From Ferruginibacter lapsinanis (GTDB lineage: Bacteria > Bacteroidota > Bacteroidia > Chitinophagales > Chitinophagaceae), in assembly GCF_020783315.1 (NCBI RefSeq), contig NZ_CP086063.1, positions 868,001-932,000 on the forward strand: a stretch of 64,000 nt of DNA. Direction: 5' to 3'. Shown piece by piece: positions 32,601 through 37,311 of the stretch. Numbering within the stretch: position 1 is the first letter of the stretch; the number at the start of each line of letters is the position of its first letter. The notes under the pieces were generated by a model that did no database searches, was not told the origin of the DNA, and was given only the letters and a program-made list of their open reading frames with translations. A program made the position numbers and the translations under genes.

Positions 32601-33177
32601 GATCATCAGTCAATAATTCCAATTTATTTACTTCATGCGAAGTACGGAATCCATCAAAGAAATGCACGATCGGTATCCTGGATTTTAATGTTGCCGCCTG
32701 TGCTATCAATGCAAAATCATGTGCTTCCTGCACACTTGCCGAACTCAACAATGCAAAGCCTGTGGTTCTTGCTGCCATTACATCCTGATGATCTCCAAAA
32801 ATTGAAAGACCTTGTGTAGCTAATGAACGTGCCGCTACATGAAATACAGTAGCCGTTAATTCTCCGGCTATCTTATACATATTTGGCAACATCAGCATCA
32901 ATCCCTGCGATGCCGTAAAAGTGGTTGTTAATGCGCCGGTTTGCAAAGCACCATGCACTGTGCCCGCAGCCCCTCCTTCACTTTGCATTTCCATTACATC
33001 GGGTATATTTCCCCAGATATTTTTTATCCCTTTTGCAGACCATTCATCTACTAATTCTGCCATGGTAGACGACGGAGTGATGGGATAGATGGCACAAACT
33101 TCATTAACACGATATGCTACATAGGCAGCAGCTTCATTTCCATCTATCGTTGCGATAGTATTTTTATTATCAGACAT
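29602..33177 (-). CDS. nifJ: Pyruvate:ferredoxin (flavodoxin) oxidoreductase
   Basis: This single-chain PFOR has about 1191 residues. The N-terminal domain has AAAYVAYRVNEVCAIYPITPSS. Two ferredoxin clusters follow near residue 694 (CIQCGNCAYVC) and 750 (CTGCNLCVEVC), then CAGCGETPYLKLL near 826 and the thiamine-diphosphate motif GDGWAYDIGYGG near 980. It converts pyruvate and CoA to acetyl-CoA and CO2 and reduces ferredoxin. ATG 33177 overlaps the upstream gene by eight bases; ATG 33201 is possible but adds residues absent from typical starts. An oxygen-sensitive enzyme suggests life under low oxygen at times. Confidence 0.95.
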   Translation of the reverse strand: MSDNKNTIATIDGNEAAAYVAYRVNEVCAIYPITPSSTMAELVDEWSAKGIKNIWGNIPDVMEMQSEGGAAGTVHGALQTGALTTTFTASQGLMLMLPNMYKIAGELTATVFHVAARSLATQGLSIFGDHQDVMAARTTGFALLSSASVQEAHDFALIAQAATLKSRIPIVHFFDGFRTSHEVNKLELLTDDQIRSMVPDDLVIAHRNRGLNPEHPFIRGTAQNPDVYFQGRETANTFYNNMSGIVEEAMIDFEKMTGRKYELFQYTGAADAERITVVMGSGGETVSETVEALNAAGEKVGVIQVRLYRPFSLEHLLRVLPESVKSIAILDRTKESGASGEPMYQDILSTLVDALQQGKIKKLPKLIGGRYGLSSKEFTPAMVKAVYDELKKEHPKNNFTVGINDDVTHLSLTYDPSYKLDESEWRQGLFFGLGSDGTVGANKNTIKIIGENTNLYAQGYFVYDSKKSGARTVSHLRFGPKPIRAPYLITKADFIACHQFNFTEKVEMLEFAGEGATFLLNSPYSKDEVWSKLTGQVQKLIIDKKIKFYVIDATTVARDTGMKGRINTIMQTCYFALSGVLPREEAIKQIKKAIEKTYFKKGQKVIDQNFLAVDATLANMYEVDYPAHVSAKDHNLLTVSDKAPDFVKQVTAMMMADHGDQLAVSQMPIDGTYPSGTTQWEKRNVSDIVAQWEPDLCIQCGNCAYVCPHSVIRAKFYHKDNVKKAPEGFKSAPINARGFPETLYSLQVYVEDCTGCNLCVEVCPASDPSNRSRKAINMGEKEPILEQEKTNIEFFENITWNDRSKIDFSTVHGAQFLEPLFEFSGACAGCGETPYLKLLSQLFGDRLLIANATGCSSIYGGNLPTTPWSMNKEGRGPAWSNSLFEDNAEFGLGMRITADKQLEIAKQYLLELKSELGENVVNEILTAKQIHESDLAEQLQRVQLLKKQLASMTSSPAAHLLSVADQLVRRSVWLVGGDGWAYDIGYGGLDHALASGRNINILVLDTEVYSNTGGQMSKSTPTAATAKFAAGGKTVGKKDLAMQAISYGNVYVARVAFGANPQQTLLAIREAEAYDGPSLILAYSHCIAHGYDLKNGLDQQQKAVSSGHWPLLRYNPMLRKKNQNPFVLDSPRPKIGLKDYAYNELRYKVLTVTNPQVAEELMSHAQDLVNLKWKNYEELATKKASDFVPIA

Positions 33178-34813
33178 TGTTGGTTGAATTAATTGGTTCA
33201 TTAATCATTTCTATAGCGTGACAAGGACATTGTTCATAACATACTGCACAACCGGTGCAGGCATCTAAATTGAATTTGTATCGGTTGCCTTTACCTAATT
33301 TAATAATTGCATCTTCGGGACAAGCTCCAAAACATCCATCACACTCAAAACAATTACCACAACTCAAACAACGTTGTGCTTCAAATCTTGTTTCAGATTC
33401 TGACAGTCCGCCGATCACTTCTTCAAAACTTTGCACTGCCACATCAGGAGCAAGTTTATCCTGTTCTTTTTGTGGCGCATCGGTCTTATACCACATATGC
33501 AATTTTCTATAGCCGGCAGTAGGATGCTTCTCGGGTTTTAAATAGGGATCCTGCATTATATAGCCATTAATATATTTGGCCGCTTTTTTTCCGTGTCCTA
33601 TTGCTATGGTAGAGCTTCTGTTTTCGCCTGGTAGCATATCGCCTCCGGCAAAAATTCCTTCATAACCAGTCATCCTTTGTGCATCAATAACTACAGTTCC
33701 GTCTGTATTGGTTACAATGCTACCGGCAGAACGCAAGTAGCCGGAATCAGACTCCTGCTGATTTGCTATAATTACTATATCAGCATCTGTGATCTCAAAT
33801 TCATTTGTACCTGCAACTTTCCCCTTCTCCACCTTTGTTAGCTCCAGCACTACTTTTTTATTTTCTATTTTACTGATGCGTCTGAACAATTGCACATCTA
33901 CTCCTTCTGCCAAGGCATCTTCTGTTTCGTAATCATATGCCGGCATCATTTTTTTATCTCCATGAAAATATACAGCCACCTGTGAACCCAATCTTTTGAT
34001 TATACGAGACAGGTATAAAGAGAGTTTACCTCCTCCATATACCACTACTTTTTTACTTTCATAAATAGTTGGGTTAGATTTTACTTCTTTAAAAAATGAA
34101 AAGGCATCCGTTACATACAATGAGTTATCATTTTGAAATGATTCCCGATGAATTAACTGTGCGCCGGTAGAAAGATATACAGCATCAAAGTTGCCATCTT
34201 GCTTTTCCATCAATACATCATGCACTTTATAATTCACACGAATGGTAACCCCCATTTTTACAATACGATTCACTTCTGCATCTAAAATTTCTTTAGGCAA
34301 CCGATAATCAGGAACACCTGTCCACAGTAATCCTCCGGGATTATCATTGGCATCAAATACTTCAACCGTATGTCCCATTCTTGCTAATTGATAAGCGGCT
34401 GATAAACCTCCTGGACCTGCTCCAACAACCAACACCCTTTTACCAGTTGGTTTAGCTTTATAGCGAATAGGCCATCCTTGTTGTATGGCCTCATCTCCGA
34501 TATATCTTTCTACAGCATGAATATTTACTGTTGTATCGATATGATTTCTGTTACAACCTGTTTCGCATGGTTTCACACAAACCCTCCCCATGATTCCAGG
34601 AAACGGATTATCTTCTACCAGTGTTTGAAAAGCTTCGAAATAATCTCCGGCCTGGGCATGCGCCATCCAACCCTGAATATTTTCACCCGAAGGACAAGCG
34701 CTATTGCAGGGAGGCATAAAGTCAACATATACAGGTTGACGAAGACGTTTGGGACCTGTACCTTCTGCATGCGTTAAAAGGTCGACGGGCTTGGTAATGT
34801 CAGTTAAAGACAT
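33170..34813 (-). CDS. GltD-like FAD oxidoreductase with iron-sulfur domains
   Basis: The protein of 547 residues has an N-terminal iron-sulfur domain (CNSACPSGENIQGWM, RVCVKPCETGCNR) and FAD/NAD(P) Rossmann motifs VVGAGPGGLSAAYQLARMGH near 130 and VVYGGGKLSLYLS. The flavin-domain end is IFAGGDMLPG. The C-terminal end has two 4Fe-4S groups (CLSCGNCFECDGCFGACP and CTGCAVCYEQCP). It resembles the glutamate synthase small subunit and NfnB/PreT-type proteins. It begins the operon with nifJ and likely moves electrons between NAD(P)H and ferredoxin. Confidence 0.85.
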   Translation of the reverse strand: MSLTDITKPVDLLTHAEGTGPKRLRQPVYVDFMPPCNSACPSGENIQGWMAHAQAGDYFEAFQTLVEDNPFPGIMGRVCVKPCETGCNRNHIDTTVNIHAVERYIGDEAIQQGWPIRYKAKPTGKRVLVVGAGPGGLSAAYQLARMGHTVEVFDANDNPGGLLWTGVPDYRLPKEILDAEVNRIVKMGVTIRVNYKVHDVLMEKQDGNFDAVYLSTGAQLIHRESFQNDNSLYVTDAFSFFKEVKSNPTIYESKKVVVYGGGKLSLYLSRIIKRLGSQVAVYFHGDKKMMPAYDYETEDALAEGVDVQLFRRISKIENKKVVLELTKVEKGKVAGTNEFEITDADIVIIANQQESDSGYLRSAGSIVTNTDGTVVIDAQRMTGYEGIFAGGDMLPGENRSSTIAIGHGKKAAKYINGYIMQDPYLKPEKHPTAGYRKLHMWYKTDAPQKEQDKLAPDVAVQSFEEVIGGLSESETRFEAQRCLSCGNCFECDGCFGACPEDAIIKLGKGNRYKFNLDACTGCAVCYEQCPCHAIEMINEPINSTNNV

Positions 34814-35021: not shown

Positions 35022-35050
35022 TAAAAAAAGGCATCTGGTTAGGATGCCGA
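35022..35050 (-). terminator. Terminator of the candidate small RNA
   Basis: GGCATC and GATGCC form a six-pair stem with a seven-base loop, followed by TTTTTTT on the minus strand. It could also end read-through from the DUF3616 gene. Confidence 0.8.
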
Positions 35051-35208
35051 ATGCTTTTGTTTTTAGGATTTTAAGAAAAAATAGAAGTTGATCGATATTG
35101 GATTTCGTTACGGTTTTTTCGTAAAAATTGGATTTAATACTTTTGGTTTAACTGGATCTTTGGATATTGTATGATTGATATTGTTGTAACTGTATCAATC
35201 AACTTCTA
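35022..35208 (-). ncRNA. Candidate structured small RNA with own promoter and terminator
   Basis: Just after a perfect -7 element (TATCTTTG, 35219-35212) the minus strand has TAGAAGTTGATTGATA (35208-35193). This pairs over 16 positions with 35097-35082, with one G-U. Inside, GTTAC (35190-35186) pairs with GTAAC (35111-35107), leaving a large A/C-rich loop. Downstream is a textbook terminator, GGCATC-loop-GATGCC plus seven T (35048-35023). No reading frame fills it. The closed long stem with an open centre and a total near 186 bases recall 6S-type RNA, possibly 6S-Flavo, but I cannot confirm the family. Confidence 0.5.
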
Positions 35209-35211
35209 ACA

Positions 35212-35219
35212 CAAAGATA
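35212..35219 (-). promoter_or_regulatory. -7 promoter element of the candidate small RNA
   Basis: TATCTTTG exactly fits TAnnTTTG and lies four bases before the closing stem of the RNA. The nearest upstream TTTG is about 26 bases away, somewhat far for a -33 element. Confidence 0.5.
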
Positions 35220-35340
35220 TATCTGATTACTATGATAGAATAGAGCAAAACTGCCCTTTCTTTTTGCTTCTGAAATTACATCCGGAGTCGTAATACTTCC
35301 AGTAAAAGCTATCGTAAAACTACGTGTGTTTTTTTCGATT

Positions 35341-37311
35341 TTAGTGTACAATTGTTAATGTATAGCCTGAATTGACCTTTACAGAGGCGGTTGGCCTTAC
35401 AGTCAGGCTCCTTATTGATCGGTTGGAACTTAGCACCGGCGTACCTTGATTGATATAAACGTCTGTATTAATATCCGGCACAATATTGCAACCCCAGTTT
35501 GCAGGTGTTTCCCAGGCATTGCTTACGGTACCTTTCCAATAAGCCTTAAACTGCAATGTAAATTCATTACTATAGGTGACAGATGCTCCGTTTGTTATTT
35601 TGCAACGGTAGGTATACCCATAGATAGAGGTTGGTGCATTCGCTAATTGTAATGTGTCGTTTGTGGCTCCGGAATAAAGTGCATTATCAGTAACATCCGT
35701 ATATCCGCTACCACTATTTACCTGCCATTGATATGTATCACCGGCAACATAAGTAGTATTTGTTATAAACGGAATATTTGCATTGGTACAGTTGGCTACA
35801 TAATTGGTCATATCATACACAAAATTATCGTAGCGAAATTTTTTGTGTTGATTATTCGCTAAAGATTTAGCCTCAGTATTGTTTCCGTAATAATCAATTG
35901 TCCCGTTGTCGCAAATTACATGGATGTAGAGTATTTCGCCAACCTGTTCGGCCACTAATGCTTCGGGATGCCCTTCTGCCACTCCATCTACAGATACCTG
36001 AACCAGATTCGTATATCCGGGTAAATCCAGTTTTGTAAGTTTTGAAAAAGTGCTATTTATGGTTATAGGATTTATTCCTGGATTTGCAGGGATCTTCCCA
36101 TCCCACAAATACAAAGCCGGTGTGCCGCCACCCGTATATAAGCCAGCAACTATTAAATATAAATTGGTTCCTACTTTTTCGATGCTTCTTATGCCTAATC
36201 CATTCAGATCAAATAATATGGGCGCTTTTATTATAGGAGTAGTAGTCACAGGCACTACCGTTCCATTCATCAACGTTTCAAAATTGGCGACCGGAGCTAC
36301 AATAGCATATTTTCTGTTTGATGAATTAGGTATAGTTCCTTTGATAGGTACGCAAGGAGCTCTGAAACCAATATATCCGGTGTCACCGCCATGCGTTACA
36401 GTCAACCCTTCTATATTAAATCCGTCAATTCTTTTTGGTTCGATGCCATCGGCTGAAGACGCAGAAAAATTCCACGAGCAGGTGTCTCCCCATGAAATTA
36501 ATGCTGATCTGAATTTAGCAGAGTAAGTTCTCACACTTAAAGTACTGGTTGCGCCTGTTCCGCTAACATCGGTTGCTATTACCCTATCTCTATCTGGTTT
36601 CAGCTTACCGCTTTTATTATTTCCTAATGAGCCTATCCAATAGATCCGTTTACCGGTATTATACTTTACGCTGGTGGACGCCCCTTCCAGATCACATTCT
36701 GCCGAAGCCCCCACTGCAGAGGTTATATCCATATTGTATAGATCTATTCCTGAATATTTTCTGCTATACAACCTTAACACATTCGTTTCGTCATCACAAA
36801 CAAACATATAATCATTATCGATTGAGGCTGCACCAGAAGCATCTGCCATCATCGTTGGCCATATTGTTTTATCTGGAAAAGATGATGCTGCTGAAACAGC
36901 ATAAGAAATTTTGTATGTGGATGAATTCTGTCCTGCATTAGTAGCAACGATGGAAATAGTATCAAGCCCAACCATCGCAGGATTGATCTTTAATATATAT
37001 ATCCCACCGGATTCTGTAAATGTAATATTTGCATTGGGTACTACCAAGACATTACTGCTCGTAAGAGATACAGAAGTAAATGTGCCTGTTATCGTGAAAT
37101 AAATACCAAAAACTGAGGCAGGATCTGTAGGGTCATTTAACACCCCACTGACATAAGATGTTTTTCCACTTCCCGAAATTATATTCAGATAAGGTTTTGT
37201 AGTACCTGGATAGACCGGCTGTATTGCATTAGCAGATAAAGTTGGTGCAGCAGAGAAAGCGCAAACGCTTATCAACAGAAAAGAAAAAAATAAACAAGTA
37301 AACTTTGTCAC
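35341..37311 (-). CDS. Secreted DUF3616-like protein with Ig-like C-terminus
   Basis: The 656-residue protein has a signal peptide (CLFFSFLLISVCAFSA). Residues 25-135 look like a beta-sandwich. Residues about 150-480 have ECDLEGAS, KRIYWIGSLGNNKSGKLKPDRDRVIATDV and GFNIEGLTV, the pattern of DUF3616, a beta-propeller-like domain of unknown role. The C-terminal part has an Ig-like segment (YQWQVNSGSGYTDVTDNA) and WKGTVSNAWETPANWGCNIVPD, a module common in Bacteroidota surface proteins. No clear type IX tail follows; the chain ends LTIVH. Confidence 0.65.
   Translation of the reverse strand: MTKFTCLFFSFLLISVCAFSAAPTLSANAIQPVYPGTTKPYLNIISGSGKTSYVSGVLNDPTDPASVFGIYFTITGTFTSVSLTSSNVLVVPNANITFTESGGIYILKINPAMVGLDTISIVATNAGQNSSTYKISYAVSAASSFPDKTIWPTMMADASGAASIDNDYMFVCDDETNVLRLYSRKYSGIDLYNMDITSAVGASAECDLEGASTSVKYNTGKRIYWIGSLGNNKSGKLKPDRDRVIATDVSGTGATSTLSVRTYSAKFRSALISWGDTCSWNFSASSADGIEPKRIDGFNIEGLTVTHGGDTGYIGFRAPCVPIKGTIPNSSNRKYAIVAPVANFETLMNGTVVPVTTTPIIKAPILFDLNGLGIRSIEKVGTNLYLIVAGLYTGGGTPALYLWDGKIPANPGINPITINSTFSKLTKLDLPGYTNLVQVSVDGVAEGHPEALVAEQVGEILYIHVICDNGTIDYYGNNTEAKSLANNQHKKFRYDNFVYDMTNYVANCTNANIPFITNTTYVAGDTYQWQVNSGSGYTDVTDNALYSGATNDTLQLANAPTSIYGYTYRCKITNGASVTYSNEFTLQFKAYWKGTVSNAWETPANWGCNIVPDINTDVYINQGTPVLSSNRSIRSLTVRPTASVKVNSGYTLTIVH

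Follow-up and report, generated by a model that had tools for sequence, protein, structure and literature searches.

A multicopy RNA family predicted in Chitinophagaceae and its possible control by a two-component response regulator

In the genome of Ferruginibacter lapsinanis we found a predicted small RNA gene that belongs to a multicopy family with a nearly invariant closing stem, and this family appears to be new and missing from Rfam 15 as searched. The gene lies on the minus strand (35219-35023) of the window, i.e. the whole 64,000-nt stretch of DNA that was analysed, and shows, in this order, a TATCTTTG box, a stem that pairs end to end, a centre rich in A and C, and a terminator (Table 1). 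As an explanation of the whole we propose, with a probability of about one half and from sequence comparison, a two-component-controlled trans-acting RNA that runs from a regulated promoter to protein capture. A sigma-A-type promoter would start the RNA, and a NarL/FixJ response regulator would switch this promoter through upstream palindromes. The closing stem would then present the A/C-rich centre, together with a long tail in many relatives, bearing repeated (A/G)UCC(A), and the repeated UCC motifs would most likely capture an RNA-binding protein. A signal would thereby relieve (or impose) the control that the captured protein exerts on mRNAs, with a capacity set by copy number and motif number.

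Table 1. Features of the predicted RNA gene and its upstream region (positions in the window)
Feature	Position	Strand	Basis
Distal palindrome CGTA-N4-TACG, presumed operator	35313..35324	-	genome-wide and family upstream counts
Degenerate proximal putative operator GTAATTTC (GTA-N2-TAC in relatives)	35272..35279	-	family upstream regions
GGGCAGTTTTGCTC palindrome, -33 region	35243..35256	-	position counts of upstream regions
TATCTTTG, -7 box, Bacteroidota sigma-A type	35212..35219	-	TAnnTTTG in position counts
Predicted RNA, ~186 nt	35023..35208	-	5' end deduced from -7 box, +/- few bases; folding, homologous copies
Closing stem, 5' strand TAGAAGTTGATTGATA	35193..35208	-	folding, family alignments, sequence
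Competing hairpin, 5' arm GATTGATA (inner half of stem 5' strand)	35193-35200	-	
Competing hairpin, 3' arm TATCAATC	35173..35180	-	pair counts across 101 copies
A/C-rich centre, mostly unpaired	35100..35165	-	sequence; motif enrichment across family copies
Four AUCC motifs of the centre	35162-35165, 35154-35157, 35130-35133, 35100-35103	-	
Closing stem, 3' strand TATCGATCAACTTCTA	35082..35097	-	folding, family alignments, sequence
Intrinsic terminator GGCATC-N7-GATGCC + T7	35023..35048	-	sequence

A sequence-only reading had described a non-coding small RNA gene here, and the promoter, the long closing stem and the terminator that it named are all present on the minus strand at this place, with a predicted transcript that agrees with the size of about 186 bases it had estimated. 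The whole predicted RNA folds with a z-score of -4.07 and the core alone with -4.62, and in neither case was any of 200 shuffles equally stable; the predicted fold also has a short stem GUUAC/GUAAC. The RNA strand holds no notable reading frame, as had been claimed. Across 101 family copies, core lengths modulo 3 are spread 40/34/27, and an ATG ORF of at least 20 aa lies inside the core in 3 copies, both of which oppose a coding role. The same-strand upstream neighbour (35341-37311) encodes a protein of 656 aa whose start looks signal-like by eye and which has no match in Pfam or NCBIfam, and the downstream gene (33170-34813) encodes a flavoprotein of the glutamate-synthase-small-subunit kind, which is followed by pyruvate:ferredoxin oxidoreductase. 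The locus is real and conserved, and its recurrence in relatives (below) is more than chance would give.

Searching the whole window against Rfam 15 at gathering thresholds returned one distant tRNA and nothing at the RNA locus, and with E up to 10 there were 4 matches in the window, none of them credible at the RNA locus. Eleven more loci (ten from relatives and the one with the tandem copies of the same genome) gave no Rfam match either. No description of the RNA and no occurrence of its stem sequence strings was found in the literature searched, from which preprints and most subscription papers fall out of coverage. The F. lapsinanis genome carries four copies: besides the one in the window, there is a tandem array of three at C1:2080114-2080951. 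When 59 genomes of the genus, F. lapsinanis among them, were searched at the DNA level, 44 had matches. A covariance model (R1) built from 53 genus copies found the RNA under strict filters in 97 of 294 genomes of Chitinophagaceae, which belong to 34 of the 101 genera sampled, with up to 10 copies per genome. Three of 295 genomes matched in a class-wide sample (F. lapsinanis and two more Chitinophagaceae), and a broader model (R2) matched 33 of 298 genomes of an order sample, every one of them Chitinophagaceae. In the samples searched the family seems confined to Chitinophagaceae. The strict filters, used in searches of more than 40 genomes, undercounted copies, as seen from the targeted search of regulator loci. 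Genera among the best 80 of 119 stretches include Ferruginibacter, Flavisolibacter, Ginsengibacter, Cnuella, Flavihumibacter, Flavitalea, Paraflavitalea, Terrimonas and Pseudobacter. Named carriers include Flavisolibacter ginsengisoli DSM 18119 and Cnuella takakiae; Ferruginibacter, Cnuella and Flavisolibacter are classified as Chitinophagaceae, and we take Ginsengibacter, Flavihumibacter, Flavitalea, Paraflavitalea, Terrimonas and Pseudobacter to belong there too.

Two alignments were used for the stem. The first kept 53 core copies of 81 nhmmer rows (the 28 excluded rows were 20 duplicates and 8 failures, two of which were the same stretch) and demanded exact GAAGTTGATTGA and CAACTTC, so that the stem invariance seen in it comes partly from selection of the copies. 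The second contains 101 copies from 82 sources across Chitinophagaceae, which were picked by R1 without exact strings, yet fitted to R1. The family stem has 15-16 bp with the nearly invariant consensus GAAGUUGAUUGAUA / UAUCAGUCAACUUC, and in the window copy it has 16 pairs, one of them a wobble. Its conservation in relatives, on which the earlier description was to stand or fall, is high, as 97.0% of 1482 stem cells in the 101 copies are paired, with 9 both-side changes. In the inner 13 pairs there are 1186 Watson-Crick, 99 G-U, 4 A-C and 2 other cells, i.e. G-U accounts for 99 of the 105 that are not Watson-Crick, and upon exclusion of one wobble-prone pair the inner stem still has 28 G-U against 4 A-C. 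A DNA inverted repeat would predict equal numbers of G-T and A-C mismatches, whereas G-U far exceeds A-C here; thus, selection on the stem seems to act at the RNA level. In some regulator-linked copies the 5' strand has gained an A and the 3' strand a T opposite it, giving stems that are one base longer in step on both strands (AGAAAGTTGA / TCAACTTTCT); other copies compared there pair poorly in the stem. Against the proposed reading, a stem sequence that hardly varies may point to a function that titration by the loop would explain only in part.

For upstream regions, neighbours and tails, copies were collected by a loose core pattern, which misses the window copy (TATCGATC as 3' strand) and matched both strands for 21 copies. 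Sets with wrong-strand doubles comprise 251 copies, 229 upstream regions and 231 tails, and sets without them 232, 215 and 212. Position counts from the 229 upstream regions (doubles included) showed TAnnTTTG, a GCTCTTG element, an A tract and a GGCA..TGCTC palindrome; the first of these is presumably the -7 box of the Bacteroidota sigma-A consensus. Further upstream, CGTA-N4-TACG occurs in 83 of 215 upstream regions, compared with a shuffle expectation of 0.75 sites in total; this distal palindrome falls at -160 to -80. GTA-N2-TAC at -90 to -55 occurs in 94 of 215. In the 229 downstream stretches CGTA-N4-TACG was found 10 times, some of these being the promoter of a next copy. Within the 3.46-Mb genome of F. 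lapsinanis there are 8 sites of the palindrome CGTANNNNTACG, against 46 of the pattern read backwards; a perfect palindrome precedes the window copy and the third tandem copy, and the remaining two copies have none.

The candidate for the protein that would act at these palindromes is a NarL/FixJ response regulator. In 60 Chitinophagaceae genomes, the RNA lies divergently 218-430 bp upstream of 18 of 56 response-regulator genes, in 14 genomes (compared with 41 RNA places), and 5 of these 18 pairs were found by targeted inspection of regulator loci. One conserved regulator (76-95% identity, with the next matches at 50% or less) is present in 24 of the 60 genomes, namely in 21 of 22 RNA-bearing genomes and 3 of 38 others (Fisher p 5e-12, uncorrected for phylogeny or genome size), so the co-occurrence may come partly from relatedness. 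The RNA-bearing state was assigned by R1 in 21 genomes and by R2 in one (G085). A re-search with laxer filters covered the response-regulator loci of G095, the one RNA-bearing genome without the conserved regulator, and of the three regulator-bearing genomes counted without the RNA: the loci of these three gave weak R2 matches (E 8e-6 to 5e-4), and all four genomes have an R2 match next to a response-regulator gene, with E of 8e-6 to 7e-4 for the best of each. In F. lapsinanis itself the regulator belongs to a cluster at C1:2306633-2311279 (L274 5633-10279), in which three NarL/FixJ response-regulator genes lie together with those of a HisKA_3 histidine kinase and an unassigned membrane-like protein (C1:2306635-2311263); this locus has no RNA copy and no perfect palindrome. 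The perfect palindrome was also found in 0 of 9 regulator-linked upstream regions inspected, of which 6 carry looser GTA-N2/N4-TAC forms. Since the palindrome is missing from the linked regions and from the F. lapsinanis regulator locus, the tie between regulator and operator is not firm. Thirteen regulator loci examined contained 3 perfect CGTA-N4-TACG sites (two in G062, one in G077), each of which precedes the conserved regulator gene by 146-402 bp.

The part of the RNA that would be presented by the stem is enriched in short UCC-containing motifs. In the interiors of the 101 copies, RTCC occurs 3.7 times per interior where dinucleotide shuffles give 1.8; TATCC, TCCAA and AAAACC are likewise enriched. 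Many relatives extend past the stem into a long tail. A simple rule, which overlooked terminators visible by eye in L031, called a terminator in 134 of 212 copies, and tails reach at least 120 nt in 99; RTCC in these 99 tails amounts to 633 against 245 in shuffles, and AAAACC to 277 against 84. The copy in the window is of the short kind and has four AUCC motifs.

Proteins with an RRM domain are natural candidates for the captured protein, but none of them is singled out. They were found in 54 of 60 genomes, RNA-bearing or not, with three in F. lapsinanis, and two or more are present in 22 of 22 RNA-bearing versus 21 of 38 other genomes, a difference confounded with genome size and relatedness. 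Near RNA copies, RRM genes occur in 3 places in 1.2 Mb versus about 1 by rough estimate. These genes lie ~0.2-1.2 kb downstream on the same strand (L243 6738-7013, L090 4000-4314 and L036 2081-2497).

The GacS/GacA-RsmX/Y/Z system of other bacteria has a similar layout, and BarA/UvrY-CsrB/C is a further system of this type. Going by the description of Gac/Rsm in PMC7911923, the likeness covers a LuxR-type response regulator, here a candidate activator, an upstream activating site, here putative, several RNA copies, some of them in tandem, and short exposed repeated motifs. The Rsm RNAs have a GGA motif, in contrast to (A/G)UCC and a near-invariant closing stem here; moreover, the palindromes here differ in sequence and spacing, the RNA is often divergent from the regulator gene, and the family was found in Chitinophagaceae only in the samples. 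CsrA/RsmA (PF02599) was found in 0 of 98 Chitinophagaceae genomes, with positive controls in 3 of 14. Membership among Csr/Rsm antagonists was rejected from the absence of CsrA and from a sense strand enriched in UCC motifs, in place of the ANGGA repeats of those RNAs. By analogy, we tentatively suggest, at somewhat less than even odds, that Bacteroidota have an equivalent of Gac/Rsm that works without CsrA, in which a multicopy RNA with a near-invariant clamp stem and modular UCC-rich arms would be the main output of a two-component system and would sequester an unrecognised global RNA-binding protein.

Bacteroides is said to be without Hfq, ProQ and CsrA in PMC12119571, and the RNA possibly belongs to a new signalling route of bacteria in which a common RNA regulator is missing. 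As a system it would be a new version of a two-component-controlled regulatory RNA. It combines a conserved multicopy RNA, clear RNA-level covariation, a named candidate activator and named isolates, and it may offer an entry point into global post-transcriptional control in CsrA-less bacteria. Due to the named isolates and the candidate activator, direct tests are feasible for the input signal as well as for the protein that would be captured.

Among other explanations, the one that survives best is a response-regulator-controlled family of antisense RNAs, in which conserved unpaired UCCAAUAUC would pair with the translation starts of many mRNAs in the manner of FopS; we consider this unlikely, though more plausible than any of the readings below. 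As described in PMC11697453, the phylum has multicopy base-pairing sRNAs associated with an RRM protein: FopS of ~65-70 nt, with a single-stranded 5' seed stretch followed by a terminator, is connected with RbpB, an RRM protein of Bacteroides, and is reported as deposited in Rfam. FopS/GibS with RbpB are likewise multicopy paralogous sRNAs of Bacteroidota in genomes with RRM proteins (PMC11697453), and ATCCAATATCC stretches are recurrent in the centre of the RNA studied here. In contrast to FopS/GibS, this RNA has paired ends, a length of ~186 nt or more and a link to response regulators; a FopS-type single-stranded 5' seed is absent, as the ends pair, and there was no Rfam match (FopS being compared by its description). 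The motifs are short, repeated and variable in spacing and number, unlike a single seed. The complement GGATATTGGA is mildly frequent in the F. lapsinanis genome, with 11 sites on both strands versus 3 for a control, which is weak either way, and an SSU search of this genome found no rRNA.

That the RNA acts in cis, as leader or attenuator of the gene that follows, is improbable. Many copies do precede a same-strand gene by a few hundred bases, often the same BtuF-like receptor gene, and in the window 210 bases separate the terminator from the start of the gene at 34813. However, tandem copies each have a promoter of their own, and in some cases a terminator as well, and the neighbourhoods vary. 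Among 232 copies, genes of a CBS-domain PLP enzyme and of a BtuF-like receptor are both nearby in 68, the former only in 43 and the latter only in 27 (CBS and/or BtuF-like in 138), a NarL/FixJ response regulator in 14 (2 of these being a different, convergent one), and none of these in 80.

The sequence-only reading had also compared the RNA with 6S RNA while allowing for a new class, and it is the latter that the evidence favours; a 6S-type RNA, binding RNA polymerase as a mimic of an open promoter, is very improbable. Length and end pairing resemble those of 6S and 6S-Flavo (RF00013 and RF01685), but the RNA here differs in the lack of a model match, the multicopy state, the absence of a second arm and the patchy spread. 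Neither model matched the window at gathering threshold, and relaxing the cutoff to E of 10 gave 4 matches, none of them to either model. RF00013 was found in 0 of 60 Chitinophagaceae genomes with positive controls in 5 of 14, so the slot is perhaps empty, and RF01685 in 0 of 147 genomes with controls that were silent too, so the latter result says little. According to PMC7366714, Bacteroides possesses a 6S RNA. The 6S RNA of Chitinophagaceae was probably either lost or is too divergent for RF00013, as far as the 60 genomes tell. 6S RNA has helical arms on both sides of a promoter-like bubble, whereas conservation across this family is confined to the terminal helix: the A/C-rich centre is variable and little paired, and a conserved apical arm is absent. 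Moreover, there are several copies per genome in a patchy distribution (97/294), and copies are coupled to response regulators.

A mobile MITE-like element whose terminal inverted repeats would be the stem is hardly credible: inverted-repeat ends, several copies and tandem arrays speak for it, but the promoter and palindromes are conserved well upstream of the repeat, the stem departs to G-U rather than A-C, and the CBS/BtuF-like gene context recurs.

Returning to the structure of the trans-acting RNA that we favour, the earlier reading of a second short stem needs a correction: the conserved short hairpin takes its 5' strand from the inner half of the long stem's 5' strand, which makes them mutually exclusive alternatives. 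For the top pair of this competing hairpin, the 101 copies have the commonest pair in 31, changes on both sides in 30, no pairing in 28 and gaps in 12. The hairpin is absent from the regulator-linked copies L128, L135, L139, L140 and L144. Switching between the long stem and the competing hairpin is possible.

Divergent paralogues were seen near standard copies at L005 566-725, L029 785-921, L039 5022-5162 and L022 2178-2314. These keep the promoter and the UCC motifs and have lost the standard stem, and the one at L005 has another hairpin, TAATTAATG/CATTAATTA, where the stem would be.

Several loci, mostly of the genus of the window, contain a repeated tail module that consists of CCAATATCC and then a small hairpin, and 62 of 69 such modules lie within 900 nt downstream of a same-strand core. 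Two positions per arm agree in 67 of the 69 modules, the 2 exceptions being wobbles, and the pair classes are GCC/GGC 40, GCU/AGC 16, GUC/GAC 8 and GUU/AAC 3; in this pattern the third pair is fixed, with pyrimidines only on one side and purines only on the other. Such pairing suggests that the tail hairpin is possibly a separate RNA-structure module. The hairpin GYYUAUGC..AGCGAUGAURRC repeats downstream of the cores at L003, L050, L211 and other loci.
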